Assembly (NCBI RefSeq): GCF_040438645.1
Contig: NZ_CP159256.1
Span: 682,001-746,000, forward strand
Direction: 5' to 3'
Origin: Mesorhizobium sp. WSM2240
GTDB taxonomy: Bacteria > Pseudomonadota > Alphaproteobacteria > Rhizobiales > Rhizobiaceae
DNA length: 64,000 nucleotides
Made by a program: the position numbers and the translations under genes. Shown in pieces: positions 26,807 to 54,227 of the stretch. Positions within the stretch are counted from its first letter, which is position 1. Every line of letters starts with the position of its first letter. The notes beneath the pieces are model-generated. The model was not told where the DNA came from and did no database searches. It saw nothing but the letters and a program-made list of their open reading frames with translations.

Positions 26807-26811
26807 CCCTG

Positions 26812-29800: not shown

Positions 29801-30072
29801 CGCGAATAGGCCGGACGGTCGCTCGGATAGACCAGGATCGACATGCCGTCGGCGAGATCAAGACGGCAGCCGACGATCAGCCGGACGCCGGTCGTCTTGG
29901 CCGCCTCATGGGCGCGCACGATGCCGGCAAGTGTATTGCGATCGACGACAGCCAGCGCTTCAATGCCGAGCAGCGCCGCTTGCGCAAACAGTTCCTCGCA
30001 TGACGATGCTCCACGCAGGAACGAGAAATGCGAGGTTACCTGCAACTCGGCATATCGGGTTTCGGCCATCAT
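26812..30072 (-). CDS. dnaE2: error-prone DNA polymerase DnaE2 (ImuC)
   Basis: The 1086-residue C-family polymerase has an N-terminal PHP domain ([20 protein letters not shown]). The palm holds catalytic aspartates in [20 protein letters not shown] and a later [16 protein letters not shown]. The HhH and OB-fold regions come toward the C-terminus. The length fits DnaE2, and the gene follows imuB with an ATGA overlap (start 30072, imuB stop 30069-30071). With ImuB it forms the damage-induced mutasome. Long plus-strand frames across this gene are antisense shadows of GC-rich codons. Confidence 0.94.
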
Positions 30073-31595: not shown

Positions 31596-32262
31596 ATGCC
31601 TCCACTGTGAAATCAGCGCTCTCTCCGGCTCGGCATCGGATCAGCTCGACATGCCAGCGGGCCCGTCCGACGCCCTGCACCGGCAAGGGCGTCGACGGCA
31701 GGACCGAGACGCGCCAGCGTGTCTCGGAGGCGGTTGGCTGGCCGAAATCGGTTGCCTCCGTCTGACGTCGCCAGCGGCGAATGGCGATGCCGATGGCGCC
31801 CGAGCTTTCGGCCGCAAGCTGAAGCCGCCGTGAGGCCGTCATTGAAAGCCGGGCAATCTCGGCAACGACAGCGCCAAAACCCCCACGAAGCCCCTCTTCG
31901 AAACAGGCGAGAACAGCTTTTTCGTCGCCGGCTTCAACATAGATTACCCTTCCCGGGGCAAGGCCGGCCTGTTCGATCGCCGGCGCGAACAGGTCGGGTC
32001 GGGTAACACACCACAGCACCTTGCCCGTCGCGCGCGCGGCAATTCCCGCTGCGAAGAGTGCCGCGGCCGCGCCATCAACAGCGTCATTTCCACCACCTGC
32101 GACCTCATGCAGAGCCCCGAGCGCCAGTCCGCCTTGCGGAAGGCGGCTGTCGAGTTCCGGCACTCCGAAGGCAAGCACCGCGCGGCTTCGGCCCTTCCCG
32201 CCCCCCAGGACGCTAATCCGCTCCTGGAGCTGCTCGACAGACATGTTCGCGGCAGATCGCAT
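31507..32262 (-). CDS. imuA: ImuA, RecA-like SOS mutagenesis protein
   Basis: The 251-residue protein is a divergent RecA/SulA-like ATPase-fold protein (FGVPELDSRLPQGGLALGAL, a common ImuA opening). It is the first gene of the cassette. ATG 32262 lies 31 bp from a perfect alphaproteobacterial LexA box; an alternative start is the in-frame Met at 32244. In Caulobacter and related species imuA-imuB-dnaE2 are SOS-induced and cause damage-induced mutation. The 3' end overlaps imuB, showing tight cotranscription. Confidence 0.9.
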   Translation of the reverse strand: MRSAANMSVEQLQERISVLGGGKGRSRAVLAFGVPELDSRLPQGGLALGALHEVAGGGNDAVDGAAAALFAAGIAARATGKVLWCVTRPDLFAPAIEQAGLAPGRVIYVEAGDEKAVLACFEEGLRGGFGAVVAEIARLSMTASRRLQLAAESSGAIGIAIRRWRRQTEATDFGQPTASETRWRVSVLPSTPLPVQGVGRARWHVELIRCRAGESADFTVEACDAKGRIALPSDVADRPLQKEIGRRRASA

Positions 32263-37150: not shown

Positions 37151-39757
37151 TCATCGTTTCAGCATCCTTATCGGACCGCCGGAAATCAGGTTGGCCACGT
37201 CCACCAGGATGTGGGGCATTGCCAGCCCGCCCGGGCAGGCAAGGTATTGCGGCGTCCAGACGGGACCGAATTTCTCCTTGAAAGCCCGCAAGCCCTCGAA
37301 ATTGTAGATCTCGTCGCCGCGCCGGTAGATGAAGGTTCCAAGATGGTTCCAGGTCGAGGCGAGAGGGTGCTCGGCAAGGCCGGCCAGCGGCGCCGCACCG
37401 AGGTTGAACCAGCGGTACCCTGCCTCCTTGCCATAGATCAGCAAGCGGGCGAACAGGGCGTCCATCATGACTTTCGAAACACCGGGGCGATAGCGCATCA
37501 GGTCGACCGAGAGTTCGTGAAGGCCGGCGCCACGCCACACATTGGCGAAAGCGACGATCTCGCCCTCCTTGCGCATCACGGCGCAGTCGAATTCGCAGAG
37601 ATAATCCTCGTCGAAACGGCCGAGAGAGAACCCCTTTTCCTTGCCCACCTTGGTCGTAAGCCAAGCGTCGGAGACACTTTTCATCTGTGGGAGTGCGGGG
37701 CGCACGTCTTGTTTGGGGATGATCGCGAACTCCAGGCCTTCGCGACTTGCCCTGCGGTCGGCATAGCGAAAGTTCTGCCGGGACGGTCCGTCCAGCGTGA
37801 AATCGGCAAGATCGACGCGGGCGACCTCACCGATCTTCAAGATCGCGAGGCCGAGATCGAGGTAGGTTGTCAGCATATCGGGTCCAACGCCGTAGAAGGC
37901 CGCCCTCGCCCCTGCCTTGTCCACCTGTTCGGCAAAACGCCAAACAAGCTCCCGTCCAGCTTCGGTATCGCCGACGGGATCGCCCATCGTGATCCAGCTT
38001 CGACCCGAAACGCCATACATCAGGAATGCCTGCTCGTCGTCAGAGATGAGAAACCTCTTGTCGCGGAGGAGCGCGACATTGGCCTGGGTCGACGGGCATT
38101 GCTCGAGAAGTTTCCGCACCACGTCGGGAATGCGCACTTGGCCGATGCGGCGCTGCACCGGACGGTTTATCAAAGCGTCGGCGGCGCCTACGCCTGCAAA
38201 AATGGCAAGGGCAAGCGTGGCGCGCAGGAAACGGGGGGCATCGCCATGCCAGGCGAAATCCCACCAAAGCGTCCTGCTGAATTCGACATGCCGGTACGCC
38301 AGAAGCCCAACAAAGTTGAGTGAGATCAGCGTGATCGCAACAAGCGCCAGCCACGTCGGCGTCGGCCTGAAGGAGCGCCAATCGCCCTTTCGATAAAAGA
38401 CGTTCCGATAGAAGGCGAGCACCGTTGCGATGATGACCAGGACGCCGGCTTCTTCCCAGTCGAGGCCCTTCGCCAGCGAGAACACCGCCCCTGATAGCAG
38501 GAGCAGGATTGCCGCGGTTCTGGCGAGGGCAATGCGCCGGTAAAGACCGCGTGCGAGCACGATGAGCAGCAGGCCTGTCACGCTGGCCAGCATGTGAGAG
38601 GCTTCCGCGAACGGGAGCGGAAGAACGTCGCGCAGGACGCTCATGCGGTCGCCTTCGGCCGGTAGGTCGCCGGAGAGCAGCAGGACCGTGCCGCCCAGGA
38701 AGACCAGGAAAGCGGTAAGCGGAGCAATGATCTTGCGGGTCATTGCGAGCGTCCGGCCCGATGCGGCGGCGACTGCGTCGCGCGAACGGTAGGTCTCGAA
38801 AACCAGAAGCGCGGTTCCAGCCAGCCCAAGCGGCAACAGATAGTAAATCACCCTGAAAACGATGAGAGCGGCGATGACGTCGGCCCGGGTACCCGCACCG
38901 AGCCCTATAAGCATGGTGGCCTCGAGAACGCCGAGCCCTCCCGGCGAATGACTGGCCGTGCCCGCGACAATAGCGATCACGAACAGCAGGGCAAAGACGG
39001 CAAACCCCGGCGTGACATCGGCGGGCAGCAAGACATAAAGCGCAGCAGCGGCGGCGGCAATGTCCACCGCCCCGACCAGTATCTGCACTGAAGCGCTCCA
39101 GCCGCCGGGGAACGGAAATCGCCAGCCCAGGATAGAAAACTCGCGCACGCCTGTTGAGAGCCAAAAGATGACGGTCGAAAGGCCGAGGAGCAATGCCGCG
39201 CCGACGGCGCGGTCGGCCGTGGGCGAGACCCTGTCGAGGAAAGGCAAGCCTACAGGATCGGCCACGAGGGCAGCGCCCACTACCGCGGCAAGACCCAGCG
39301 AGAAGGTGAGAGCGGAACTCCCGATGATCCGTCCGACATCGGCCGCATCAAGTCCCGAGGCCGCGTAGATGCGGTAGCGCACCGGGCCGCCAACCAGAAC
39401 ATGAAAGCCGATGGCGTTCGATATCGCATAGCCGACCAAGCCTGCGAAGGCGGCGAGACGGACGGGAACACGGTCCGGCGCAATCTTGCGGACCGCAAGC
39501 ACATCGTAGAGCCCCATCGCCACGAAGCTAACGACGGTGAAGCCGAGCGCCCGAATTGTGGACGGCCATGTGGTCGCCGACACCGCTCTTCGGATGTCGT
39601 TCAGGTGTATCTCGCCCGAAATGCGATGGACAACCAGGGCGGCCGTGAACACCACTGCAGCCCCGATGATCGGCCCAAGCACGCGGGGCTCCATGAACCG
39701 TACGAGCAACCGAACGTCAGGGCCTGACGGGCTTTCCAGTTTGATGCGTTCGCTCAT
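37151..39757 (-). CDS. mprF: MprF/LpiA: phosphatidylglycerol lysyltransferase-flippase
   Basis: The 868-residue protein has an N-terminal flippase half with about 14 membrane spans and a C-terminal soluble synthase domain (about residues 540-868, DUF2156/GNAT-like; SGRSWITMGDPVGD, YRPGVSKVMMDALFA, RWFNLGAAPLAGL). It attaches lysine from tRNA to phosphatidylglycerol and flips the lipid, making the surface less negative. The rhizobial homologue LpiA is induced by low pH and aids acid and peptide tolerance. ATG 39757 (MSERIKLE) is chosen; an upstream Met would add 14 residues. It is probably the last gene of the general-stress/carbonic-anhydrase/mprF series. The usual partner AtvA/AcvB is not seen here. 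Confidence 0.92.
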   Translation of the reverse strand: MSERIKLESPSGPDVRLLVRFMEPRVLGPIIGAAVVFTAALVVHRISGEIHLNDIRRAVSATTWPSTIRALGFTVVSFVAMGLYDVLAVRKIAPDRVPVRLAAFAGLVGYAISNAIGFHVLVGGPVRYRIYAASGLDAADVGRIIGSSALTFSLGLAAVVGAALVADPVGLPFLDRVSPTADRAVGAALLLGLSTVIFWLSTGVREFSILGWRFPFPGGWSASVQILVGAVDIAAAAAALYVLLPADVTPGFAVFALLFVIAIVAGTASHSPGGLGVLEATMLIGLGAGTRADVIAALIVFRVIYYLLPLGLAGTALLVFETYRSRDAVAAASGRTLAMTRKIIAPLTAFLVFLGGTVLLLSGDLPAEGDRMSVLRDVLPLPFAEASHMLASVTGLLLIVLARGLYRRIALARTAAILLLLSGAVFSLAKGLDWEEAGVLVIIATVLAFYRNVFYRKGDWRSFRPTPTWLALVAITLISLNFVGLLAYRHVEFSRTLWWDFAWHGDAPRFLRATLALAIFAGVGAADALINRPVQRRIGQVRIPDVVRKLLEQCPSTQANVALLRDKRFLISDDEQAFLMYGVSGRSWITMGDPVGDTEAGRELVWRFAEQVDKAGARAAFYGVGPDMLTTYLDLGLAILKIGEVARVDLADFTLDGPSRQNFRYADRRASREGLEFAIIPKQDVRPALPQMKSVSDAWLTTKVGKEKGFSLGRFDEDYLCEFDCAVMRKEGEIVAFANVWRGAGLHELSVDLMRYRPGVSKVMMDALFARLLIYGKEAGYRWFNLGAAPLAGLAEHPLASTWNHLGTFIYRRGDEIYNFEGLRAFKEKFGPVWTPQYLACPGGLAMPHILVDVANLISGGPIRMLKR

Positions 39758-39835
39758 GGAACAGTTCCCGAAGATGCGAAGCGATGAAAGCTGTGGCAAC
39801 GCGCAGGCGCGGCGTGACCGCGCCTGCGCGACGCT

Positions 39836-40588
39836 TTAGTTCAAGCCCAGGATGAAGCGTCGGTTGGGCGAACGGACCGGGCGGGCATTCATCGGATAAA
39901 GTGCTGTGAAGCGCTCGATATCTGCCTGATCCACCTCGACCGGCTCCATTGCCACCATCCAGTCGACGCCCTCTGAGCAGGGCGGTGTCGTTAGGGATCC
40001 CTTATAAGTCCAGTAGCCGGGCGACGCCGGCAGGAGTCCGTTGGGATCGACATCGTCGACCGACACCTCCTCCCCTGTTTGCGCGGGGAAAGCGGCGGCA
40101 AGGCCGGCGAAGTTTGCATTGGCCCTACCGGGTGTCAGGAACACGCCGAGCACGCCGAGCTCATCGGTTCGAGCGTCCGCGTGCACAAAATGCGCTTCCA
40201 TTGGAAATGTCCTGCCATCCACATGGTGCTCGCTCGGCGCATGGAAGTGGAACTGCAGCAGTTCGTAGACGCGGTCGCCAAGCCGCAGTGTGCTGCCTTC
40301 CGGCATGTTGATCTGGATCGTATGGCCGTTGTTCATGATCGTACCACGGCTCTTGTGCCAGCCGATTGCTAAGCGCGGAATATCTGCCCTAACGGCGCCG
40401 GCGATGTCGATCGGCGACTGCCGGGTGCCGCTCGAACAAACGAAATTATTCGGGTCCAGATCGGCCCAATGCTCTGGCCCTTCGCGGCCTTCATAGCCCC
40501 AATGGACGCTTGCCGCCCGCGCGGCCTCAGCGCAGATCGGGCATGCGCCCAATGCAATGAACCCTTTGATCAGGTTACGTCGATGCAT
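39836..40588 (-). CDS. alpha-class carbonic anhydrase, exported
   Basis: The 250-residue protein has an export signal (residues 1 to about 26, RRNLIKGF opening). The alpha-carbonic-anhydrase core follows: HWGYEGREGPEHWADLDPNN, SSGTRQSPIDI, and the zinc ligands His114 and His116 in FHFHAPSEH with His133 in EAHFVHAD. It also has SLTTPPCSEGVDWMV with the substrate-pocket Thr. It converts CO2 and bicarbonate in the periplasm and helps pH homeostasis. It lies between a general-stress gene and mprF on the same strand, supporting an acid or CO2 stress role. All zinc ligands are present. Confidence 0.93.
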   Translation of the reverse strand: MHRRNLIKGFIALGACPICAEAARAASVHWGYEGREGPEHWADLDPNNFVCSSGTRQSPIDIAGAVRADIPRLAIGWHKSRGTIMNNGHTIQINMPEGSTLRLGDRVYELLQFHFHAPSEHHVDGRTFPMEAHFVHADARTDELGVLGVFLTPGRANANFAGLAAAFPAQTGEEVSVDDVDPNGLLPASPGYWTYKGSLTTPPCSEGVDWMVAMEPVEVDQADIERFTALYPMNARPVRSPNRRFILGLN

Positions 40589-40728: not shown

Positions 40729-41247
40729 TTACGCGGCCTTCAAGACTTCCGCCGACGTAGCGTTGAGCCGCTCCATGATGCTACGGGCACGCTCGACTTC
40801 CGCGGCGTCTCCGTGCGCGATGACGAGGAATTTGTCGGCCTTAACGGCCATCTCGTATTGGATGATGCTTTCCTTCGGCACACCGAGGCTGTAGAGCGCG
40901 GCGCCCAGGGCCGAGAGGCCTCCGACCACCACCGCGCCCTCGAGAGCGCCGACCAGAGCAGCCACAAGCGGGCCGCCGACCGCCAGCGGGCCGATCCCGG
41001 GCACCCAAAAGAAAGCCGCACTTATGAGCAGGCCCCACAGACCGCCCCAAAGAGCGCCCGTGCCACCCCAGAACTTCACGCGCTCGCCAGTCGTGTAAAA
41101 GCCGACGGGTTGCTCCTCGCTGTGATATCCCTTGCCGACGATCGAAAGCTTCTTCATGTCGAAGCCCGATCGCTGAAGGTCCTTGACGATCTCTTCCGCC
41201 CTCTCATGGCTGTTGAAGACGGCGATGACGGCATTGTCGTTTGACAT
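40729..41247 (-). CDS. general-stress protein with glycine-zipper core
   Basis: The 172-residue protein starts with an HMA-like alpha/beta region (NAVIAVFNSHERAEEIVKDL). A glycine-rich hydrophobic centre follows (about residues 60-120; WGGTGALWGGLWGLLISAAF and VGALEGAVVVGGLSALGAAL), then a second alpha/beta region (KADKFLVIAHGDAAEVERAR). This is the 17M-like/YflT general-stress layout, probably membrane-associated. A strong sigma-54 promoter match lies 74-89 bp upstream. It is the first gene of a series with carbonic anhydrase and mprF. The molecular function is unknown. Confidence 0.8.
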   Translation of the reverse strand: MSNDNAVIAVFNSHERAEEIVKDLQRSGFDMKKLSIVGKGYHSEEQPVGFYTTGERVKFWGGTGALWGGLWGLLISAAFFWVPGIGPLAVGGPLVAALVGALEGAVVVGGLSALGAALYSLGVPKESIIQYEMAVKADKFLVIAHGDAAEVERARSIMERLNATSAEVLKAA

Positions 41248-41320
41248 GGCTTGTTCTCCTTCTCTGCTCTGCTTCGTCAGTTCGCACGGCCACCCGCCAC
41301 GAACTGCTCACCCGAACCCG

Positions 41321-41336
41321 AGCAAGACACGGGCCA
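41321..41336 (-). promoter_or_regulatory. sigma-54 (-24/-12) promoter upstream of the general-stress gene
   Basis: On the minus strand the sequence is TGGCCCGTGTCTTGCT. It matches the consensus TGGCACG-N4-TTGCW at all positions but one, with exact GG-N10-GC spacing. It lies 74-89 bp upstream of ATG 41247. A sigma-54 activator gene ends about 120 bp further upstream, a strong functional link. Confidence 0.7.
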
Positions 41337-41459
41337 GACAGCTACCGCGCTGAAAAACAACAGGACTTTCATCCCATGCCGGCGCATTTGCGAATCCGAA
41401 ATGGGGGATATGCACCGGTGGTGGTGGCGAACTCAGCCGTATCCGTTAGCCCCGGATCA

Positions 41460-42854
41460 CTATTGCTGCGGGGCGTTCCTCCTCTGCAGCCCATGCCGCG
41501 CCATGCGGTAGCGCAGCGTTTCGCGCGTCATTCCGAGCCGCCGTGCAGTCGCCATCACATTATAGTGGTCTTGCTGCAGGGCCGCCTCGATGATCAGCTT
41601 TTCCATGGCGTCGAAGTTAATGGAGCCGTCCAGCGGCAGTCGAACGAAGTCCCCGGACTCCACCGGGGCAACGGTATCGCCTGGCCTGATCTGCAGCCAT
41701 TCGGTCGGCAAATCCTCGCCTGTAGACAGGAGCACGGAACGCTCCATGACGTTGCGCAGTTCACGCACATTGCCGGGCCAGTCATAGGCGGCGAGCAGCT
41801 TGCGCGCCGATTCGGGGATGCGCCGCACCCGTTTGCCGGAGACGGCGTTGAACTCACGGATCAATTCCTCGATCAACTCGTCCAGATCTTCCTTGCGGGC
41901 ACGCAATGGGGGCAGTTCGAGTTGGAAGACGCCGAGACGATGATAGAGATCCTCTCTGAACGCCTTTTCGGCCACGAGTTCACGGAGATTGCGGTTGGTG
42001 GCCGCGATGATCTGCACGTCGACGGGAATCATCCGCTCGCCGCCGAGCCGGCGGATGGCCTTGTCTTCGAGCGCCTTGAGAAGCTTCGCCTGCAGATCGA
42101 GATGCAGCTCGCCGATCTCGTCAAGCAACAGCGTGCCGTCGCTTGCCTGCTCCATCAGGCCGCGATGGCTGCCTTTGGCTCCCGTGAAAGCGCCGGCCTC
42201 GTGTCCGAAAAGCTCCGATTCAAGGAGCTCGCGCGGCAGCGCCGCGCAGTTCACCTCAATGAGCGGTCCGCCGGCGCGCCTGCCGCTGTGATGCAGGATG
42301 CGCGCCGCGAGGCCCTTGCCGGTGCCGGTCTCCCCCACGATCACAATGCCGCTCAGTGGCGCTTGACACAGACGAGCGAGCGTATCGCGCATCCGAGCGG
42401 CCGCCTCGCTGCGGCCGATGAAGGCGGCCGGGCTATAGCGGCCTCGCTGCTGGAATGTTTCGTCCGCAATCCTCCGCTGGGCGCGGGCGCCGCGAAATGC
42501 AGCGCCGACGATACGGTCGAGCCGATCGCGATCCATCGGCTTGGCCAGAAAGTCGAACGCCCCGAGCTGCTTGGCCCGTTCGGCGTCGGGTGCCTCGCCA
42601 AGACCGGTAAGAAAAATCCATTCGCGCTTGTCGCCCTCCTCGCGTGCGCGCTCCAGAAGATCAAGCGCATTGCCATCCGGCAGGTGCAGATCGGAAAGCA
42701 CGACGAGCCCCTCATAGCCCGTGCCATAGACGAAGGGCTCGGCCTCGCGCAGGCTGCGAACAAGCCTTATCGTGCGTCCTCCCCGCTCGAAATGCCGCTT
42801 GAGGTCGATCCCGAACATGGTGTCGTCCTCGATGATCAGCAGTTCCTCACCCAT
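41460..42854 (-). CDS. sigma-54-dependent response regulator (NtrC family)
   Basis: The 464-residue protein has three domains. The receiver (1-120) has acidic residues in IIEDD and a phospho-acceptor Asp55 in LSDLHLPDG. The AAA+ domain (about 143-375) has Walker A GETGTGKG at 174-181, GAFTGA at 221-226 for sigma-54 contact, and a Walker B-like TLLLDEIGE. A Fis-type helix-turn-helix lies at the C-terminus (ATARRLGMTRETLRYRMARH). It should activate sigma-54 promoters after phosphorylation. Candidate targets with -24/-12 matches surround it. No intact histidine kinase lies nearby. ATG 42854 (MGEELL) is preferred over an upstream Met. Confidence 0.92.
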   Translation of the reverse strand: MGEELLIIEDDTMFGIDLKRHFERGGRTIRLVRSLREAEPFVYGTGYEGLVVLSDLHLPDGNALDLLERAREEGDKREWIFLTGLGEAPDAERAKQLGAFDFLAKPMDRDRLDRIVGAAFRGARAQRRIADETFQQRGRYSPAAFIGRSEAAARMRDTLARLCQAPLSGIVIVGETGTGKGLAARILHHSGRRAGGPLIEVNCAALPRELLESELFGHEAGAFTGAKGSHRGLMEQASDGTLLLDEIGELHLDLQAKLLKALEDKAIRRLGGERMIPVDVQIIAATNRNLRELVAEKAFREDLYHRLGVFQLELPPLRARKEDLDELIEELIREFNAVSGKRVRRIPESARKLLAAYDWPGNVRELRNVMERSVLLSTGEDLPTEWLQIRPGDTVAPVESGDFVRLPLDGSINFDAMEKLIIEAALQQDHYNVMATARRLGMTRETLRYRMARHGLQRRNAPQQ

Positions 42855-43194
42855 TCGATCGGTTGCTCCATTCAAGAGCGGCGGCCGCACCGCCGGTTAG
42901 CTTAGTCAAGAGTTATATCGATGGAGCAGTGGTTGAAGTCCACCACAATGGTTGATCTGCCGACACAGCGCGGCGATAGCCCGCACGCGCCGCCTGTACC
43001 CTCTTGTTGGCGGTAGCGCAGTTAAGAGGTTGTTTGCAACGCTCAATTTTGGATGAGCAGGCCCCGGACGAAGGCCGCCCTTCTGGCCTGTTTCTTGAAT
43101 GGGAGCCTCCGTAACTGCGTGGAGGACCGGCGAGCAGGAAGGAATTCGGGCTCGCTCTCCTCATCAAACCGTCAGGAAACGAGGAGAGCCAACA
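42855..43194 (+). promoter_or_regulatory. divergent control region, response regulator and MFS genes
   Basis: This 340-bp intergenic stretch holds a degenerate -24/-12-like site at 43084-43099 (TGGCCTGTTTCTTGAA): correct spacing, but GA instead of GC at -12. An inverted repeat (GTGG-N6-TCCACC, 42929-42944) shares the TCCACC/CACCGG core seen upstream of the other candidate targets. The strong ribosome-binding site GAGGAGAG precedes ATG 43195. The regulator's binding site has not been shown. Confidence 0.35.
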
Positions 43195-44490
43195 ATGTCA
43201 GCCCTGTCAGACCTGCGCTCGCTGACATCCCAGCAGCGCAACGCCGTCGTCGCCAGCTTCCTCGGCTGGACGCTCGACGCCTTGGACTTCTTCATTCTCG
43301 TCTTCGTACTGAAATATGTCGCCGACGAGTTCGGGACGGATATCGCGAGTGTCACTCTCGCGATCACGCTGACGCTCGCGATGCGGCCCGTAGGCGCGCT
43401 CTTCTTCGGCTACTTCGCGGACCGGTTTGGGCGGCGACCGACCCTAATGGTCAACATCCTGCTTTACTCGGCCCTCGAATTCGCGTCGGGCTTTGCGCCG
43501 TCGCTGACGGCTCTGATCGTTCTTCGCGCGATCTACGGCATCGCCATGGGCGGCGAGTGGGGCGTCGGCGCCTCGCTCACCATGGAAACCATTCCGCCGA
43601 AGATGCGCGGCCTGGTCTCCGGATTGCTGCAGGCCGGATACCCGGCGGGGTATCTCATCGCCTCGCTCGTCTTCTTCCTGCTCTTCCCGCTGGTCGGCTG
43701 GCGCGGTATGTTCATGCTGGGCGCCCTGCCCGCGCTTGTCGTCTTCTACATCCGCTCGAAGGTGGAGGAGTCCCCTGTCTTCGTCGAGCGCCAGCACAGG
43801 ATGCAGCGCGTCAAGATTTGGTCAACGCTGAAGCGGCATGCCGGCCTGTTCGTCTATGCAGTCCTGCTGATGACGGCCTTCAACTTCTTCAGTCATGGCA
43901 CACAGGATCTTTATCCGACCTTCCTGGAAGTGCAGCAGAAGCTTTCGACGACCACCGTCGGAGCCATCGCCGTCATCTACAATATCGGCGCGATCCTGGG
44001 CGGCATAACCTTCGGCATGCTGTCCGAACGGATCGGGCGGCGGCGCGGCATCGTGATCGCGGCCCTGCTGGCCCTGCCCATCATCCCTCTATGGGTCTAT
44101 TCATCCGGCCCCGTGCCGCTGGCATGCGGCGCATTTCTGATGCAGTTCGCTGTCCAGGGCGCCTGGGGAATCATTCCCGCTCATCTCAACGAGCTTTCGC
44201 CGGACGAACTGCGCGGCACCTTTCCCGGCCTGGCCTACCAGCTTGGCAACCTGATCGCGGCCGCCAATGCCACCATGCAGGCCGGACTCGCGGAGCATTT
44301 CGGCAACGACTATGCTTTCGCGCTCGCCCTCGTCGTCGGGGTTGTCGCCGTCTGCGTCGCGCTTTTGTCCGGCTTTGGCGTCGAGGCGAAGGGGATCGCA
44401 TTCGGGAAGCAGGGCGAAATCACGCCCTCGAACCCCCTGCGGTCAGTGATGTCGCCGCCTGACGACGCCACCCATCTGAAGATCCGGTAG
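43195..44490 (+). CDS. MFS transporter, sugar/carboxylate:H+ symporter type
   Basis: The 431-residue protein has about 12 membrane spans and the MFS loop motif FGYFADRFGRRPTLM after span 2. GIAMGGEWGVGASLTMETIP and DALDFFILVFVL are typical of the metabolite:H+/sialate-lactate (SHS) group. It probably imports an organic acid with protons across the inner membrane, which could consume external acidity. ATG 43195 is preceded by GAGGAG. The kup gene follows 58 bp later on the same strand, so the two are likely cotranscribed. The substrate is unknown. Confidence 0.85.
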   Translation: MSALSDLRSLTSQQRNAVVASFLGWTLDALDFFILVFVLKYVADEFGTDIASVTLAITLTLAMRPVGALFFGYFADRFGRRPTLMVNILLYSALEFASGFAPSLTALIVLRAIYGIAMGGEWGVGASLTMETIPPKMRGLVSGLLQAGYPAGYLIASLVFFLLFPLVGWRGMFMLGALPALVVFYIRSKVEESPVFVERQHRMQRVKIWSTLKRHAGLFVYAVLLMTAFNFFSHGTQDLYPTFLEVQQKLSTTTVGAIAVIYNIGAILGGITFGMLSERIGRRRGIVIAALLALPIIPLWVYSSGPVPLACGAFLMQFAVQGAWGIIPAHLNELSPDELRGTFPGLAYQLGNLIAAANATMQAGLAEHFGNDYAFALALVVGVVAVCVALLSGFGVEAKGIAFGKQGEITPSNPLRSVMSPPDDATHLKIR

Positions 44491-44548
44491 CTGGAGCCAT
44501 CGGCGTGATCGCGGTGCTTCCGCGGTCGCAGGATGGACAAGTAGAGCT

Positions 44549-46435
44549 ATGGTCGAAGTCCCGCTCACATCACCCCGCGTCCGAGGCGGCGCCGAGCTAG
44601 CAGCGCTCGGGGTCGTCTTCGGCGACATCGGCACAAGCCCGCTTTACGCATTGCGCCAGGGTGTCGCGGCAGCGCAAGCTGGTGGTGGAGCCGGCCAAGC
44701 GGAGGTACTCGGCGCTCTATCGTTGCTTTTCTGGTGTCTGACCATCGTGGTGACGCTTAAATATGTCCTGATCCTCCTTCGTGCGGATCACGATGGAGAG
44801 GGCGGCATCCTGGCCCTTGTCACCTTGCTGAAACCACGCCGGGACACCCACACGGGACGGCTCATGCTTTTTCTTGGTCTGCTTGGAGCAGCAACTCTGC
44901 TCGGCGACGGCGTTCTGACCCCGGCAATCTCGGTGCTGTCCGCCGTCGAGGGTCTGCAGGTTTTCATACCGTCTCTGAGCAAGCTGGCGATGCCGATCGC
45001 AGCTTTCATCCTCGTCGCGCTTTTTCTCGTGCAACGCATCGGCACCGAGTCGATCGCCCGCTTCCTTGGACCCGTGATGCTGGTATGGTTCCTGGCCATC
45101 GGCCTGCTGGGACTCCTCGGCATTGCGCACGAGCCGCGCATCCTTGCGGCGGTCGACCCGCGCCCCGGTCTCCAACTGCTCGTTGCGGAGCCGCGGTCGG
45201 CACTTGTAATCCTCGGCGCCGTTTTCCTGGCCGTCACCGGCGCCGAGGCGCTTTATGCTGATCTCGGCCAGTTAGGCAGACCGGTGATCCAGCGCGCCTG
45301 GTTCTGTGTTGTGCTGCCCGCCTTGCTGCTCAACTATTTCGGACAAGGGGCGTTGCTGCTGACGATGCCGCAAGCCCTCGAAAACCCGTTCTTCGCGCTT
45401 GTGCCCACAGCCTTCGGCATCCCGATGCTCATCTTGGCCACGCTGGCCACTATCATCGCCTCGCAGGCCATCATCACGGGCGCCTTCAGCCTGACGAAAC
45501 AGGCGATCCAGCTTGGCTACCTTCCGCCCATGCGCGTGCGGCACACTTCGCGCCGGAACGAGCGGGACGTTTATATCGGTGAGACCAACGCGCTTCTCAT
45601 GGTCCTCACCGTCTCGGTGGCCGTCGTCTTCGGTTCCTCCGCAAGCCTGGCATCGGCCTACGGCATTGCCGTATCGATCACTATGGTGGCGACTGCGGTG
45701 CTCTTTGTTTCCGGGCTCGATCGCTTCAGCGACTGGGCACCTAGGTGGCTCGGCGGCCTGGCGATATTGCTTCTGGCCATTGATCTCGGGCTGCTCGCGG
45801 CGAACCTCTCAAAGGTTGCCGATCGCGGCTGGCTCCCGCTCGGTATCGCTGCTTTCGTCCTATTGGTCATGTTGAGTTGGCGCCGCGGTCTCGACCAGCT
45901 TGCCGCACGGCAGGGGCGGTATGCGATGCCGCTGTCTGCTTTCGTGGCCGGGCCAGCCGCGACACGTGTCGTGGGCAAGACGGCGATTTTCCTGGCCCGT
46001 TCGGAGGGCATGGCGCCCTTGGCGCTCATCCTCCTCCGCGACCTGGTAGGGGTGAGATTCGCGTCGGTGGTGATCGTGACGGTGGAGGTCTCGCAACGGC
46101 CCCGCGTACCGTCCGCCGAGCGGACCACTTGCTCCCGTATCGGCAGGAAACTGACCCAGGTCTCCTTCCGCGTAGGATATATGCAGGACGTCCGGCTGCC
46201 GGCCATGCTGGGGCCTGTCCTGCACGATGCGGGGATCGACGCTGAGGATGCAATTTACCTTGTCGGAATGGAGCGAATGATTCCTACCGAGCGCGTGCGC
46301 AGCTTTCGCGACGTGCTTACCCACATCTCAGCGTTTCTGGCCCGAAATTGCGAACGCGACGCTGATCGCTTCGCTTTGCCGCAGAGCCGCACCATCATCA
46401 TTGGGCGCAGTCTTGTCCTGAAGGAAGCGACATGA
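44549..46435 (+). CDS. kup: Kup-family potassium uptake protein
   Basis: The 628-residue protein has the KUP signature near the N-terminus (GVVFGDIGTSPLYALRQ), about 12 membrane spans (to residue about 450) and a cytoplasmic C-terminal domain (about 455-628, starting near VVGKTAIFLARSEGMAP). It takes up K+ with protons. Kup systems matter at low pH and in osmotic stress. It follows the MFS transporter by 58 bp. The frame is intact and of normal length. Confidence 0.94.
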   Translation: MVEVPLTSPRVRGGAELAALGVVFGDIGTSPLYALRQGVAAAQAGGGAGQAEVLGALSLLFWCLTIVVTLKYVLILLRADHDGEGGILALVTLLKPRRDTHTGRLMLFLGLLGAATLLGDGVLTPAISVLSAVEGLQVFIPSLSKLAMPIAAFILVALFLVQRIGTESIARFLGPVMLVWFLAIGLLGLLGIAHEPRILAAVDPRPGLQLLVAEPRSALVILGAVFLAVTGAEALYADLGQLGRPVIQRAWFCVVLPALLLNYFGQGALLLTMPQALENPFFALVPTAFGIPMLILATLATIIASQAIITGAFSLTKQAIQLGYLPPMRVRHTSRRNERDVYIGETNALLMVLTVSVAVVFGSSASLASAYGIAVSITMVATAVLFVSGLDRFSDWAPRWLGGLAILLLAIDLGLLAANLSKVADRGWLPLGIAAFVLLVMLSWRRGLDQLAARQGRYAMPLSAFVAGPAATRVVGKTAIFLARSEGMAPLALILLRDLVGVRFASVVIVTVEVSQRPRVPSAERTTCSRIGRKLTQVSFRVGYMQDVRLPAMLGPVLHDAGIDAEDAIYLVGMERMIPTERVRSFRDVLTHISAFLARNCERDADRFALPQSRTIIIGRSLVLKEAT

Positions 46436-46784
46436 CGAACCAGCGTCGCACCGCGCGGCATGTCTTTCTCTGCACTTCTCGGGCCGACGCTTCTTGTGCA
46501 AGGGATCGAGTGGAGCTGAGCGCCTACGGTTGATAGTCTTGGTTTTTATAGCGACTTGTTCCTCGCAATCAGCAGCGCTCAGGCAGTGCCGTGGTGTCGA
46601 CGCAAACGAGCCGCGTCTCGTGGAACAGGCAATGGAGCTATCCGATGAAACATTTTGCTCTCGGGCATCGCATGTTGGAGCCACCTCTTTCTCATGTGCC
46701 CCTGCCTCGGCAGGTCTGCGATCGCGCGGGCGAAAGAAACGTTGAGTACATGGCTGGAGCAAACAAGCAGGCGTTTCGGTCGTG
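46436..46784 (+). other. gene-poor stretch after kup
   Basis: About 350 bp between the kup stop and the kinase-like stub. Short frames here have no domains. I see no clear terminator. Confidence 0.35.
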
Positions 46785-46880
46785 ATGCAGAGACCGCCAT
46801 TCCCGGCCCGGTTGCATCCGGCGTTGCTCCTGGCGCTGGGTTTCGCACTGCTCGTCTTGATCGCGGGGGCCTCGGTGTGG
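46785..46880 (+). pseudogene. histidine-kinase-like N-terminal stub
   Basis: From ATG 46785 the frame reads MQRPPFPARLHPALLLALGF, ALLVLIAGASVWLALAE, a short cytoplasmic start plus one membrane helix as at the N-terminus of sensor histidine kinases. The frame then runs into the antisense of the yfdX-like gene and has no sensor or kinase domain. It may be the 5' stub of the kinase once paired with the NtrC-type regulator at 41.5-42.9 kb. Assignment rests on a short match and context. Confidence 0.35.
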
Positions 46881-48695
46881 CTAGCCTTGGCCGAGCACAT
46901 CGGGAGCGATCTGCGCCGTCAGCTTCTGCGCCTCGGTGATATCTCCGTTGCCCATGGTCTTGATCAATTCGTCGCGCAAACGTTGCGCCTCGTAATTGCC
47001 TTCCCTGGCGGCGATTTCGTACCAAACATAGGCCCAGATCGGATCCTTCTCGACGCCCCAGCCATGGGCGTAGAGCTGTCCAAGATCCTGCTGCGCCTTG
47101 GAATTGCCGCCATGAGCAGCCTGCTCAAGCCATTTGTGCGCTTTCGCGAAATCCTGCAGCGTCTCAGTTCCGTTGAAGTAGATTTCGCCCAGCTGGAATT
47201 CCGCGGCAGTCCAGCCTGCTTCAGCAGACTTGCGGTACCACTTCAGAGCCGTGTCTATCTTCTTCGGCACGCCCAGGCCGTACTCATACATGTCGCCCAG
47301 CCAGAAGGCGGCCTGCGGATTGTTATCTTCGGCCAGCGGCGTGAGGATCTTCAGCGCTGCGTCATAGTCACCCGCCGTCAAGGCGGCGACGCCGCCACTG
47401 ACGGTGTCGTCCTTCGTGTCTGCCCGTGCCTCTATCATGCGGCTGATCTCGCCCTCGAGTTCGACAAACCGGGATTGTTGCTGGTCGGAAGCGGGTTCTG
47501 TGGCCAGATCTTCGACACTGTTGTGTATCGCCAGGATTGCGGCGGCCTCAGTTTTCGACACGCGATCAACCGCTTGATCCATGTAGTTTAACGATAATCC
47601 CAGTTCCTCCGCGGCCTGATCGACATCGTGCGTCGTGAACCGGGCGATCTCGGCATAGGAGAGATGCAATTTGGCCTCGATCAGATCCGCTTTCAGATCG
47701 GATTTCGTGCCGGCGCGCTGCAATCCCGCTGCGATATATTCCGCGCTCCGCTCCGAAACGGCCTTAGCCCTCTTCCAAAGCTCGTCCAGCCGCGAGGGCA
47801 CGTCCTCCACGTTCGCCTCGATATCTGTTCTCAGGGACCGGGCCTTCGTCAGCATTGCTTGTGCGGCCCTACGTGTCTCTTCGTCTGCGTCCTGGGTCAG
47901 TTGATCGAGATCGCCGATCGCCGTATCAAGCTCGGCCTTCGCTGCATCGAAGGCGCCGGCCGCATATTTCTGCGCGGCCTGCCACAGCGATTGATGCGCT
48001 TGAGCCAGCGGCTCATGCGCCACGGCGGAAAGGTAGACAACATCGTCCTCCGCTGCCTTCAGCGCGGCATCGACTGCGAGGATATCCTTGCGCTGAAGCT
48101 CCTGCCGCGCTTCGGTAACGAGGCGTCGGGTGGCGCCCAGCGGAAGATCCACCTCCTTGTAGACAAGGGTCTCGCCGGCCGCCAAGAATTCGGCCATAGC
48201 GCCGTTCTTATCGTTCTTTTCGAGATTTGCCTTGGCCCGATCGATGTGCTGTCGCGCCTCCTCGACCGCCACGTCGCTGACCAGCCGCTCTAGACTGCTG
48301 TAGATCGGCACAAGATCGGGCATGACCTCCTCGGTGCTCTCATATTCCAGGTGCCTCCTCGCAACCCGGATTTGATCCTTCACAGCTACTGAGGGAAGCG
48401 AAGATTGGACCAGGTCCAGCAGGCCAAGAGCCTTGCCGAGCTCCTGGTCGGCCGCGGCGAAGTTCCTGTCTTCGACGTGTCGCCTTGCCGAGGTGATATG
48501 GCGCAAGGCTTGCGCGGCCGCTAACGAAACGGCGGCTTGACCCCCCGGTTGGTTGGGCGAATCCGCAACCGCGGCCGTATTTTCTCGAAAGGGCGCTGCC
48601 GCTGCCGGACCGACCAATGCCGTCGTGCCCATTAGGACAGCCAGAGCGAAAACGGATGAAGAGGCTGCGGCTGACTTCAGCGTATTACGTTGCAT
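46881..48695 (-). CDS. YfdX-family periplasmic protein with C-terminal Sel1 repeats
   Basis: The 604-residue protein has a signal peptide (residues 1 to about 35, ending PAAAAP) and a long helical YfdX-like region (about 60-400; HITSARRHVEDRNFAAADQE, AAEDDVVYLSAVAHEPLAQA). At least three Sel1/TPR-like repeats follow (PQAAFWLGDMYEYGLGVPKK; AAEFQLGEIYFNG; GNSKAQQDLGQLYAHGWGVE). YfdX proteins are periplasmic stress chaperone-like factors and travel with FtsH in heat/stress-resistance islands. Fusion to Sel1 repeats is unusual. ATG 48695 has GAGGAG upstream, and a -24/-12 match lies about 60 bp ahead. It diverges from ftsH. Confidence 0.82.
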   Translation of the reverse strand: MQRNTLKSAAASSSVFALAVLMGTTALVGPAAAAPFRENTAAVADSPNQPGGQAAVSLAAAQALRHITSARRHVEDRNFAAADQELGKALGLLDLVQSSLPSVAVKDQIRVARRHLEYESTEEVMPDLVPIYSSLERLVSDVAVEEARQHIDRAKANLEKNDKNGAMAEFLAAGETLVYKEVDLPLGATRRLVTEARQELQRKDILAVDAALKAAEDDVVYLSAVAHEPLAQAHQSLWQAAQKYAAGAFDAAKAELDTAIGDLDQLTQDADEETRRAAQAMLTKARSLRTDIEANVEDVPSRLDELWKRAKAVSERSAEYIAAGLQRAGTKSDLKADLIEAKLHLSYAEIARFTTHDVDQAAEELGLSLNYMDQAVDRVSKTEAAAILAIHNSVEDLATEPASDQQQSRFVELEGEISRMIEARADTKDDTVSGGVAALTAGDYDAALKILTPLAEDNNPQAAFWLGDMYEYGLGVPKKIDTALKWYRKSAEAGWTAAEFQLGEIYFNGTETLQDFAKAHKWLEQAAHGGNSKAQQDLGQLYAHGWGVEKDPIWAYVWYEIAAREGNYEAQRLRDELIKTMGNGDITEAQKLTAQIAPDVLGQG

Positions 48696-48753
48696 TGTAC
48701 TTCTCCTCGATTGCGGCTGATGACGGATCCCATGCGGACCCGAATGCAGAAGG

Positions 48754-48769
48754 AGCAAGCCACACGCCA
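48754..48769 (-). promoter_or_regulatory. sigma-54 (-24/-12) promoter upstream of yfdX-sel1
   Basis: Minus-strand TGGCGTGTGGCTTGCT matches TGGCACG-N4-TTGCW with two changes at the least conserved positions and exact GG-N10-GC spacing. It lies 59-74 bp upstream of ATG 48695, a normal distance. Confidence 0.6.
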
Positions 48770-48835
48770 AAGGAAAAACCGTGATCTCTCAAAGGCATAG
48801 TCGAACCGCGATCGAAGATCGGCGTACCGTTGGTT

Positions 48836-48868
48836 CAAATCCACCGTGCTCCAAGTGCAAATCCACCG
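48836..48868 (+). repeat. direct repeat, possible activator-binding sites
   Basis: CAAATCCACCG occurs at 48836-48846 and again at 48858-48868, 22 bp apart (two helical turns). It lies between the divergent sigma-54 sites of yfdX-sel1 and ftsH, where upstream activator sites would be expected. A related CACCGGTG palindrome lies at 41413-41420 upstream of the general-stress gene. Confidence 0.45.
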
Positions 48869-48919
48869 GACGCAAGTCGAGGCGTACCCGAAACGCTTTC
48901 GTCTCAACCCTTTGCATCA

Positions 48920-48935
48920 TGGCATCGGACTTGCT
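48920..48935 (+). promoter_or_regulatory. sigma-54 (-24/-12) promoter upstream of ftsH
   Basis: TGGCATCGGACTTGCT matches TGGCACG-N4-TTGCW with two changes and exact GG-N10-GC spacing. It lies 102-117 bp upstream of ATG 49037. It diverges from the yfdX site 150 bp away, so one set of activator sites could serve both genes. Confidence 0.6.
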
Positions 48936-49036
48936 CCAGGACATCCGACACGCAGGTTGCCGGACGGTGAACTCGACTGGCTGGCCAACTGAAACGCAGG
49001 ACGCCTTCAAGCAGACGCCGAGCCAAGAGAAGCAAC

Positions 49037-50890
49037 ATGGACAAGAAGCATCAGATCAATTTCTGGTACCTCGCAATCGCCCTCAGCCTGCTGTTCCTGT
49101 TTCAGGGCTGGTATGCGAGCTGGAAGACTGTCGAACCGATGCCCTATTCGGAATTCCAGCAGTATCTGAGCGACGGTAAGATCGCCGATGTCGAGGTGAG
49201 TGACCAGCAACTCGCCGGCCAACTCAAGCAGCCGCTGCAGGACGGTCGCCAGTACTTCACCACCAATCGGGTCGATCCGGCGATCGCCAACGAACTCACG
49301 AAACATGGTGTGAAGTTCGCTGGCACGGTGCAAAACTCGTTCTTGGGCGACCTTCTCTCATGGGGCCTTCCCGTAGTCTTCTTCTTTGCACTTTGGGCTT
49401 TCTACGTCCGCCGCTTTGCCGAGAAGCAGGGGATCGGTGGATTGATGACGGTCGGCAAATCCAAAGCCAAGGTCTATGTGGAGCGCGACACGAAGGTCAG
49501 CTTCGCCGATGTCGCCGGCGTCGAGGAGGCGAAGGACGAACTCAAGGAGATCGTCGCCTTCCTGCGTGATCCCGCCACTTATGGCCGGCTCGGCGCGCAT
49601 GTCCCGAAAGGCATTCTCCTGGTAGGTCCACCCGGCACCGGCAAGACGCTGCTCGCACGCGCGGTGGCCGGCGAGGCGGGCGTGCCGTTCTTCTCGATTT
49701 CGGGTTCGGAGTTTGTCGAGATGTTCGTCGGCGTCGGGGCGGCGCGCGTGCGCGATCTGTTCGAACAAGCACGCAAGGCCAAGCCGTGCATTATTTTCAT
49801 CGACGAGCTTGACGCCCTCGGTCGCGCCCGCGCACCGGGGGGCATGTCCGGAGGCTTTGACGAGAAAGAGCAGACCCTCAACCAGCTCCTGACCGAACTC
49901 GACGGCTTCGACCCCTCGGAGGGTATCGTCCTCCTGGGCGCGACCAACCGCCCCGAGGTGCTCGATCCAGCGCTCCTGCGCGCCGGCCGCTTCGACCGCC
50001 ACGTGCTGGTGGACCGGCCCGACCGGCCCGGCCGGCGCGCGATCCTCGAGGTCCATATCCAGAAGATCCGCAGCCTGGCCAAAGACACGAAGCTTGACCA
50101 GATTGCCGCGCTTACCCCCGGCTTCACCGGCGCCGACCTTGCCAACCTCGTCAACGAGGCGGCCCTGCTCGCAACCCGGCGCGGGGCAGCCGAGGTATCG
50201 ATATCCGATTTCACCAGCGCCATCGAGCGCATCGTGGCCGGACTCGAGAAAAAGAGCCGTCTGCTCAACCAGCACGAACGCCGGATGGTCGCCTTCCACG
50301 AGATGGGTCATGCACTCGTCGCTGCCACCCTGCCCGGCATGGACCCTGTCCACAAGGTGTCGATCATCCCGCGCGGCGTCGGCGCGCTCGGCTACACGAT
50401 TCAGCGGCCGACCGAGGACCGCTTCCTGCAGACGACCCGGCATCTCCAGGACCGCATGGCGGTGCTGATGGGCGGGCGCGCAGCCGAGCACCTCGTGTTC
50501 GGCGAGATATCCACCGGGGCCGCGGACGACCTCGGCAAGGTGACGGATATCGCCCGACGCATGGTGACCCGGTTCGGCATGGCCGACCACATCGGCCAGG
50601 TGGTCTACGAGGAGGATCGGCCCGCCTTCCTCGGCCAAGGACTTGAGGTCGCGAAGCGGAAGGACTATTCGGAGGCGACCGCGCGCGAGATCGACCTTGC
50701 CGTGCGCCAGCTTGTCGATCGTGCGTTCGAGCAGGCCGAAGCGATCCTTGTCGAACGACGGTCCGATCTCGATCGCGGCGCAGCCTTGCTGCTCGAACAA
50801 GAAACCATAACCGCTGCGGATTTCCCGCCGATCGCCGGCAGGACGCCGCCGGCCGAAGTAGCCCAAGACCCGAAGGCGGCCGCCGCATGA
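49037..50890 (+). CDS. ftsH: accessory FtsH, ATP-dependent membrane zinc protease
   Basis: The 617-residue protein has two membrane spans (about 11-24 and 107-124) with a periplasmic domain between. The AAA+ domain has Walker A GPPGTGKT at 197-204, Walker [12 protein letters not shown], and the SRH region [19 protein letters not shown]. The zinc-protease site is HEMGH at 421-425. Most FtsH have HEAGH; Met instead of Ala keeps the catalytic HExxH. Accessory FtsH genes beside yfdX are known from stress-tolerance islands. A sigma-54 promoter match lies upstream. The stop overlaps the Nramp start (ATGA, 50887-50890). It is complete and likely active. Confidence 0.94.
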
Positions 50891-52166
50891 TTGGCGCAGG
50901 CGAACGGCAGCTTACCGTTGGCCCTTCCGGAGCGGCGGCGGCATCCGGCTCGCCGCGACGCGCACGCAGCGCCTCCCCAAGGCGGCTGTTTCTTGGCGCG
51001 GCCTTCGTTGCCGCCATCGGCTACATCGATCCCGGCAACTACGCCACGAACATCCAGGCCGGCGCCGAACATGGCGACATGCTGCTCTGGGTCATCGTCT
51101 GGGCCAATCTGATCGCCGTGCTCGTCCAGCTGTTATCGTCCAAGCTCGGTTTGGCCACGGGATCGAGTCTTGCGGAGGTATTGCATGCGCACCTGCCACC
51201 CTGGGCCAACTGGGCCTACTGGATCCAGGCAGAGATTCTCGCTGTCGCTACCGATCTCGCCGAATTCGTGGGAGCCGCGCTCGGCTTCGAGTTGCTGTTC
51301 GGCGTCACCCTCCTCCAGGGAGCCATTCTGACGGGAATCATCAGCTGGGCCATTCTCTCGATCGAGCTGCGGGGCTGAAGCCGCTCGAACTGGTGATCGG
51401 CTCCATGCTGGCGATGGTTGCCGCAGTCTACGTTCTCGAACTGATCCTGAGCCATCCCGCGCCTATGGCGATCATCAGGGGCGCGGTCGTCCCGGAACTG
51501 GCAGGGGAAAAAAGCATCTACCTGGCAGCTGGCATCTTGGGCGCCACGGTGATGCCACACGTGATCTACCTGCACTCCGCGTTGAGCCGCTCGGATGCGC
51601 GGAGCTTCACCGCCACCTCACGCCGCAGCCTCTGGTGGTGGAGTCGCTGGGACATCGGCATTGCCATGACAGTCGCAAGTTTCGTCAATCTCGCCATGCT
51701 CGCAATGGCCGCGACGGTCTTCCATCCCGCCCACTCCAACATCGTGGAGATCGAGACCGCCTACAAGACGCTGGAGCCGCTGCTCGGCCCATTCGCGGCG
51801 CACATTTTCGGTCTTTCGTTGATCGTCGCTGGGTTGGCCTCGACCGTTGTTGGCACGCTTGCCGGCCAGGAAGTGATGCAAGGTTTCGTCGGCTTCCGGA
51901 TTCCTCTCTTCGTCCGACGCGCGGTTACCATGGCTCCATCCTTCGTAGTCATCCTGCTTGGCTTCGACGTGACGCGGGTTCTCGTGCTGAGCCAGGTGAT
52001 CCTCAGCTTCGGCATCGCATTGGCGCTGATACCGCTTGTCCTTTTCACGAGCCGGCCGTCTATCATGGGCGATCTGGTGAACCGACGAGCAACCATCCTT
52101 CTCGGGTGGGTCGTCGTTGTTGTCATCGTCGCCATGAACATCGTTCTGCTGGCGACCATCTTATGA
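50887..52166 (+). pseudogene. Nramp-family Mn2+/Fe2+ transporter split by a frameshift
   Basis: The first part (to 51378) has the Nramp opening [20 protein letters not shown] with the metal-binding DPGN, then spans 2-4 to SWAILSIEL. At about 51370 a one-base shift (run of G, ...GCGGGGCTGAAG...) ends the frame. The second part (51393-52166, continuing [14 protein letters not shown]) has the MPH motif (LGATVMPHVIYLHSALSRSD) and the remaining spans. Together they make a full-length H+-coupled Mn/Fe importer. Both halves are well conserved, so the lesion is recent, or a sequencing error. It is coupled to ftsH. Confidence 0.85.
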
Positions 52167-54065: not shown

Positions 54066-54227
54066 GCGCAATCAAATTGCGCAACAGGCCCCATACGCGA
54101 CAATTGACCGTTTTCCTTACACATTGTTAGGCCTCTCCCATCGAGGCCCCGGAGAGCGGCAAACATGTAAGGAAAATATGTTAGCAAATCTATTGCCAGG
54201 AAAACGGTACCCGAGAAATATCCTTAC
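54066..54227 (+). promoter_or_regulatory. repeat-rich region before the resolvase gene, candidate res site
   Basis: The stretch holds a palindrome GCGCAAT-CAA-ATTGCGC (54066-54082). CCGTTTTCCTTACA (54108-54121) has its complement TGTAAGGAAAA at 54166-54176, GGAAAACGGT at 54199-54208, and TCCTTACATG at 54221-54230. Repeated inverted pieces in front of a Tn3-type resolvase gene are what a res site looks like. The exact subsites I-III cannot be set without comparison. Confidence 0.5.

Follow-up and report, generated by a model that had tools for sequence, protein, structure and literature searches.

Candidate EbpA/RpoN stress regulon around an orphan NtrC-type activator in Mesorhizobium sp. WSM2240

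The 64-kb stretch of Mesorhizobium sp. WSM2240 DNA analysed here (the window; NZ_CP159256.1, positions 682,001–746,000) holds a gene for an NtrC-type sigma-54 activator amid genes for a glycine-zipper stress protein, a YfdX protein and an FtsH protease, which raises the question of whether this activator governs its neighbours. A first-pass annotation, made from the letters alone, had proposed that it does so through three −24/−12 promoters. We consider it very probable, judging from the DNA, that the activator, an orphan copy of a protein whose name we take to be EbpA, controls a GSP17M–carbonic anhydrase–mprF cluster, yfdX and ftsH–nramp through palindromes and sigma-54 promoters. For comparison we use a second island on another contig of the same genome (C1), the corresponding locus of Sinorhizobium (Ensifer) medicae, and loci of further genomes, chiefly G499, G766 and G618. 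The elements in question are as follows:

37151–39799, minus strand: mprF-type lysyl-phosphatidylglycerol synthase gene (PF09924, E = 1.2e-87) at the end of the GSP17M cluster; exact start codon uncertain
39836–40588, minus strand: aCA, alpha-type carbonic anhydrase gene (PF00194, E = 7.6e-42)
40729–41247, minus strand: gene for a GSP17M/YflT-like glycine-zipper general stress protein (PF11181, E = 6.1e-7), first gene of the cluster
41321–41336, minus strand: −24/−12 promoter site of GSP17M–aCA–mprF, TGGCCCGTGTCTTGCT, one mismatch; aligned counterparts on C1 and in G766
41403–41416, minus strand: candidate upstream activating sequence of the GSP17M promoter, GGTGCATATCCCCC, 12/14, at −80
41460–42854, minus strand: ebpA-like NtrC-type sigma-54 activator gene, orphan copy (receiver, AAA+ with GAFTGA, Fis-type helix-turn-helix)
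42931–42944, no strand assigned: palindrome 5′ of the activator gene, GGTTGAAGTCCACC, 11/14
46881–48695, minus strand: yfdX, coding for a predicted envelope stress protein with Sel1 repeats at its C-terminus (PF10938, E = 1e-17; PF08238, E = 2.4e-26)
48754–48769, minus strand: −24/−12 promoter site of yfdX, TGGCGTGTGGCTTGCT, two mismatches; counterparts on C1 and in G766
48832–48845, no strand assigned: candidate enhancer palindrome 1, shared, GGTTCAAATCCACC, 11/14; −76 to yfdX, −88 to ftsH
48854–48867, no strand assigned: candidate enhancer palindrome 2, shared, AGTGCAAATCCACC, 11/14; −98 to yfdX, −66 to ftsH; 22 bp from palindrome 1
48920–48935, plus strand: −24/−12 promoter site of ftsH, TGGCATCGGACTTGCT, one mismatch; identical 16-mer 5′ of ftsH in G766
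49037–50890, plus strand: second, island-type FtsH protease gene (PF01434, E = 7.7e-65)
50887–52166, plus strand: Nramp-type transporter, two open reading frames, both PF01566; 4-base overlap with ftsH; frame broken near 51376–51393

A motif scan with a scoring matrix based on the published consensus bears out the coordinates and strands claimed for the three −24/−12 sites, which are correctly oriented and lie about 74 (GSP17M), 59 (yfdX) and 102 (ftsH) bases from the start codons. The genome has two sigma-54 genes, and the pattern TGGCN7TTGCW occurs 136 times in it, compared with 91 in a backward control. No site at a score of at least 6 was found for the activator, MFS or Kup genes (42701–43300 and 44401–44600). 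The top-scoring −24/−12 site of the window (54183–54198, minus strand) adjoins a resolvase gene at 54228 and has neither a palindrome nor a convincing gene behind it.

What makes the three sites credible is a second element that accompanies them, i.e., a 14-bp palindrome resembling GGTGGATATCCACC, which is located 5′ of all three and of none of the five other window sites scoring at least 12.5. The perfect form of GGTGGATATCCACC was seen at the S. medicae locus, after blocks shared between the window and C1 had been found upstream of yfdX and GSP17M. Under a pair rule (palindrome of at least 11/14, starting 55–105 bases 5′ of a −24/−12 site scoring at least 12.5), exactly three of the eight window sites have a pair, and these three are the claimed promoters. 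Read as a fit more than as a blind test, for the reasons weighed below, this count compares with a mean of 0.0033 pairs in first-order Markov simulations of the 17.5-kb region (n = 300, none with three), a window mean of 0.03 and a maximum of 1 for composition-shuffled palindromes (n = 101), and a window mean of 0.027 and a maximum of 2 for random palindromes (n = 1000). The palindrome pair between the divergent yfdX and ftsH promoters is so placed that it could serve both, and its −66/−88 spacing at ftsH is the same as that at lpiA of S. medicae. An enhancer-like palindrome is also located 5′ of ebpA in five loci (the window, C1, G499, G766 and S. medicae), and the one at 42931–42944 suggests possible autoregulation.

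The same element recurs in other genomes. Across 14 rhizobial loci surrounding ebpA or ftsH copies, the palindrome accompanies 18 of 28 distinct sites (shuffled palindromes: mean 0.2, maximum 6), and in the loci obtained after it had been written down (G499, G766 and G618, including ftsH loci) it accompanies 11 of 16. Control loci beside other NtrC-type genes, which span many phyla and are unmatched in base composition, have it at 3/79 sites (65 loci), and it is missing from all five sites in 26 rhizobial yfdX loci whose genomes have no ebpA match (about 3 kb each, ebpA-bearing genomes excluded, three loci below the YfdX cut-off). The common palindrome, its similar spacing elsewhere and its rarity beside other NtrC-type regulators support the proposal that this activator drives the three promoters. 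A combined palindrome and promoter pattern, written from these sites, matches the 6.7-Mb genome four times (backward control: 0), at the promoters of yfdX and of GSP17M in each island. The genes behind such pairs include yfdX, GSP17M–aCA–mprF, a cytochrome oxidase subunit II gene and, by eye, a 6-phosphogluconate dehydrogenase gene in G766; aCA and probably a patatin gene in G499; a patatin gene and one for a DUF1269 protein in G618; a 6-phosphogluconate dehydrogenase gene (Pfam) on C1; and lpiA in S. medicae.

Which activator, then, would read this element? The first-pass assignment of 41460–42854 to a sigma-54 activator with GAFTGA and a receiver holds in a domain search and a residue check, which found a receiver with the conserved aspartates and lysine, a sigma-54 AAA+ domain with GAFTGA and a Fis-type helix-turn-helix behind an ATG at 42854. 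The protein is 90% identical to the C1 copy (91% by tblastn), 87% to those of G499 and G766, 78% to that of S. medicae, 56% to that of G023 and 55% to that of G618. The S. medicae orthologue adjoins the annotated tcsA–tcrA–fsrR–lpiA genes; of 194 matched records, just 13, all from S. medicae plasmids, fall at 60–80%, and these carry the 78% match, over 97% of the query. The annotation of CP140906 calls it only "sigma-54 dependent transcriptional regulator". In this species, TcsA–TcrA–FsrR, EbpA and RpoN reportedly exert acid control over lpiA–acvB (Reeve 2006 and Tian 2017).

Close relatives of the activator are sparse in the samples searched: 5 of 394 genomes of the family sample match it at E ≤ 1e-120 (the own genome included), and 2 of 385 of the class sample at E ≤ 1e-100 (the own genome and G327). 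A scan of genome contigs gave, among its best 80 matches, at least 15 at 51–57% identity (L035–L048 and L050) before a drop to 40%, and 11 of those 15 listed matches are labelled gammaproteobacterial. In a tree of 51 proteins, 22 orthologues separate with branch support of 100/99 from 29 other NtrC-type proteins, which comprise 20 of the 65 control loci and nine rhizobial paralogues and no ZraR or PspF sequence; the C1 copy is not among the 22, its matched stretch having probably run through a stop upstream of the start. A related histidine kinase gene lies near the activator gene in 13 of 18 orthologue loci, mostly directly upstream. In the G023 orthologue (L033, 16272–17657), GSFSGA replaces GAFTGA, the sigma-54-contacting loop.

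The C1 island carries yfdX, a gene cluster that includes HlyD and MFS genes, fsrR–tcrA–tcsA (L031, 8540–11645), ebpA, GSP17M and aCA, and in G499 an fsrR–tcrA–tcsA–kup–MFS block lies opposite ebpA–aCA, with aCA directly after ebpA. Orthologues of fsrR–tcrA–tcsA lie beside ebpA in three genomes besides the published ones (the own genome on C1, G499 and G766). Because the window keeps MFS–kup and its phosphorelay genes are gone (tcsA–tcrA–fsrR were not found in the 64 kb by tblastn at E ≤ 1e-8), its activator is best read as a derived, orphan branch of the TcsA–TcrA–FsrR–EbpA–RpoN pathway and not as a full member. The window and C1 differ unevenly by tblastn (GSP17M 97% identical, ebpA 91%, aCA 75%, yfdX 69%), which suggests separate histories or exchange; GSP17M of the window is 88% identical to that of G766. 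In both C1 and G766, aCA follows GSP17M. No mprF was found by tblastn after the C1 aCA; the G766 GSP17M–aCA is followed by an mprF match that covers residues 11–65 and 337–882 only. As the YfdX Pfam model is undetected (C1, E ≤ 0.001) or weak (G766) in the yfdX homologues of these ebpA islands, these proteins may be relatives of the Sel1 type whose YfdX domain has diverged. The MFS gene lying between tcsA and ebpA in S. medicae CP140906 (L128, 13370–14627) looks frameshifted, since it has no annotation and its match falls into three offset pieces; C1 retains a short MFS remnant.

We propose that a stress signal would pass from TcsA to TcrA to FsrR, all encoded on C1, and that FsrR would bring about phosphorylation of either EbpA copy. 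Because the receivers of the window and C1 activators differ at few positions and their recognition helices (MTRETLRYRMARHGL) are identical, the window EbpA is probably phosphorylated by the C1-encoded proteins, and its targets probably overlap with those of the C1 copy. EbpA would bind the palindromes, often present as pairs about 22 bp apart and roughly 58–109 bp 5′ of −24/−12 promoters, and would then trigger open-complex formation by sigma-54 RNA polymerase. The predicted outputs in the window are GSP17M–carbonic anhydrase–mprF, presumably as an operon, and, from a single enhancer pair, yfdX on one side and ftsH–nramp on the other. Acid would be the most likely signal, because a Klebsiella yfdX mutant is acid-sensitive, with HdeA compensating (PMC6394985), and lpiA and cah are among the most strongly acid-induced genes of S. 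meliloti (PMC2651895).

Several points besides the unmatched control loci weigh against this model. Taken alone, the −24/−12 motif is at chance level (38 window matches vs. a shuffle mean of 30.8, with 13 of 100 shuffles at 38 or more), and the top-scoring site lacks both palindrome and clear gene, as would be expected if the three sites were chance matches and the genes used other promoters; however, the co-occurring palindromes, their spacing and their recurrence in other genomes render this explanation highly improbable. At the cut-off used, 10 of the 28 distinct rhizobial sites have no palindrome, and two looser genome-wide patterns barely exceed their backward controls (3 vs. 2 and 3 vs. 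1), reveal no further targets in the own genome and have all their real matches within the two islands. The score and distance cut-offs of the pair rule were fixed only after matches had been seen, and the palindrome was first spotted in the window, C1 and S. medicae, sites that constitute no independent test; hence the reading of the window statistics given above. Finally, no such promoter was found before ftsH in G618 or G499, so that one of three orthologues of the island ftsH retains it. The genome encodes another FtsH, to which the island-type second copy is 48% identical; among seven genomes (the own one, two genus mates and four bearing ebpA), close copies exist in G766 (83%), G618 (66%) and G499 (62%); G023, G001 and G002 have no close copy, their best matches reaching 48–50%. 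The site might thus be non-functional and the shared enhancers might serve yfdX only, which we regard as rather improbable: in G766, where ftsH lies away from ebpA and is followed by an Nramp match, the promoter is identical over 16 bases in otherwise diverged DNA, with palindromes at −68 and −99, and no 16/16 block other than the ftsH promoter and enhancer 1 is common to the two yfdX–ftsH intergenic regions. Opposite the G766 ftsH stands, by eye, an apparent truncated yfdX remnant, to which the window YfdX gave no tblastn match. Because G766 keeps the promoter and G618 and G499 do not, ftsH has support from no more than one lineage pair and is the least secure of the three proposed targets; of the conservation in related genomes that the first-pass annotation had suggested looking for, the GSP17M and yfdX sites recur on C1 and in G766, and the ftsH site only in G766.

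The lack of tcsA–tcrA–fsrR in the window counts against the model as well, and, with a 90% identical C1 copy that has fsrR–tcrA–tcsA alongside, it would suit a situation in which both islands are EbpA regulons, C1 EbpA with its phosphorelay runs both, and the window activator, redundant or decaying, contributes little. The latter nevertheless retains an open frame, the receiver aspartate, GAFTGA and the helix-turn-helix; we see this redundancy as possible and lean against it. A further question is whether the signal is acid at all. Genes for BON-domain proteins, HdeA, patatin, cytochrome oxidase subunit II, DUF1269 proteins and 6-phosphogluconate dehydrogenase stand behind sigma-54 sites elsewhere, and the 13 of 18 loci with a related histidine kinase would also fit a general envelope-stress switch, ZraSR- or Psp-like in logic, that answers to something else. 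This strikes us as unlikely, for YfdX, HdeA, LpiA and carbonic anhydrase are acid-linked, and PMC4674904 and PMC9048898 tie the S. medicae cluster to acid. We retain the EbpA/RpoN regulon with acid, or a related envelope stress, as its presumed signal.

The unit extends past the interval marked by the first-pass annotation, with the carbonic anhydrase (39836–40588) and mprF (37151–39799) genes coming after GSP17M. Split over two reading frames, the Nramp gene that follows ftsH probably encodes no working transporter as read, unless the break is a sequencing error. Among the 15 of 605 records listed for a plasmid search with the YfdX–Sel1 protein, the best matches are weak, uninformative ones of Sel1/TPR type. 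Elsewhere in the window (25559–32262), a DNA polymerase III alpha-like gene between two IMS-family (Y-family polymerase-like) genes resembles an imuB–dnaE2 error-prone repair cassette.

How far might the system reach? Besides alpha- and gammaproteobacteria, EbpA orthologues were seen in isolated metagenome-assembled genomes that bear labels of other phyla. By the strict rule, gammaproteobacterial-type loci have the palindrome at 3/31 sites (controls 3/79); at ≥10/14 and −45 to −130, the counts are 8/31 and 7/79 (Fisher p = 0.03). A degenerate palindrome, written post hoc after inspection of the same gammaproteobacterial-type matches, occurs singly at 9/31 vs. 3/79 sites and paired at 6/31 vs. 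0/79. At a Halioglobus orthologue locus, an HdeA gene stands behind a sigma-54 site and palindromes. We tentatively suggest, with arguments for and against close to balance, that EbpA represents a sigma-54 switch for envelope/acid stress which is widespread, moves horizontally and reads one recognisable enhancer code, namely GGKNNATATNNMCC-like palindromes in pairs spaced about 22 bp apart; it would usually be accompanied by a histidine kinase, would have been wired independently to YfdX, HdeA, BON proteins, lysyl-phosphatidylglycerol synthases and FtsH, and would have the rhizobial TcsA–TcrA–FsrR system as a local elaboration. The regulon proposed for the window would connect three bodies of stress literature, on acid tolerance in rhizobia, on periplasmic chaperones of the YfdX/HdeA kind and on accessory FtsH proteases.

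The first-pass annotation knew of no description of such an island under sigma-54. This stands only in part: sigma-54 acid control of an MprF-type gene is already known for S. medicae lpiA, and yfdX and ftsH as targets look new. The pathway is therefore known, and the target set (yfdX/ftsH), the enhancer code and the wider family reach appear new. No description joining yfdX with sigma-54/rpoN, or fsrR/phosphorelay with rpoN, was found in the open-licence literature, and Tian 2017 may describe the binding site. In PMC5493296, the two passages on yfdX are entries of tables placed in sections about heat-shock and extracytoplasmic sigma factors, and PMC9048898 states that fsrR–tcrA–tcsA is absent outside E. 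medicae and that acid control of lpiA–acvB in other rhizobia is unknown; fsrR is present in one E. meliloti strain, by transfer (PMC5613336). The orthologues beside ebpA on C1 and in G499 and G766 come with candidate targets and a testable enhancer code, and the window apparently gives a tangible example both of an enhancer-binding protein that is duplicated and lacks its phosphorelay and of a single enhancer pair positioned for two divergent sigma-54 promoters.

Among known systems, ZraSR and Psp also combine an NtrC-type activator, sigma-54 and envelope-stress genes, whereas their targets and enhancers differ from those of the window. Against solved structures, the activator matches an NtrC-family chain best (E = 2.5e-82), ahead of a ZraR chain without receiver (E = 1.6e-65) and PspF (best E = 6.2e-52); these structure matches lend no support to an identity with ZraSR or Psp. 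To our knowledge, the EvgA and RcsB regulators of enterobacteria belong to other activator families and involve no sigma-54 role. They resemble the window in placing yfdX under two-component control, and PMC6394985 and PMC8067161 link RcsB to acid in Klebsiella. The tLST/LHR stress island likewise has an accessory YfdX and a second FtsH (PMC8290217), whereas the window genes have sigma-54 sites instead; an origin from such an island was rejected, no small heat-shock protein, ClpG/K, HdeD, KefB, thioredoxin or DegP being found among the 30 window open reading frames covered by the Pfam scan. With the S. medicae pathway, in which tcsA–tcrA–fsrR is required for or implicated in low-pH lpiA activation together with RpoN and an enhancer-binding protein (PMC4674904 and PMC9048898), our system shares an orthologous activator, tcsA–tcrA–fsrR orthologues in the same genome, a sigma-54 site with upstream palindromes (which we infer to mark the published pathway from S. 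medicae DNA, not from the papers) and a lysyl-phosphatidylglycerol synthase gene. It differs from that pathway in that the activator is duplicated and its window copy has no phosphorelay, that the window mprF product is 37% identical to LpiA and is encoded last in a GSP17M–carbonic anhydrase cluster, and that yfdX and ftsH–nramp are additional candidate targets.

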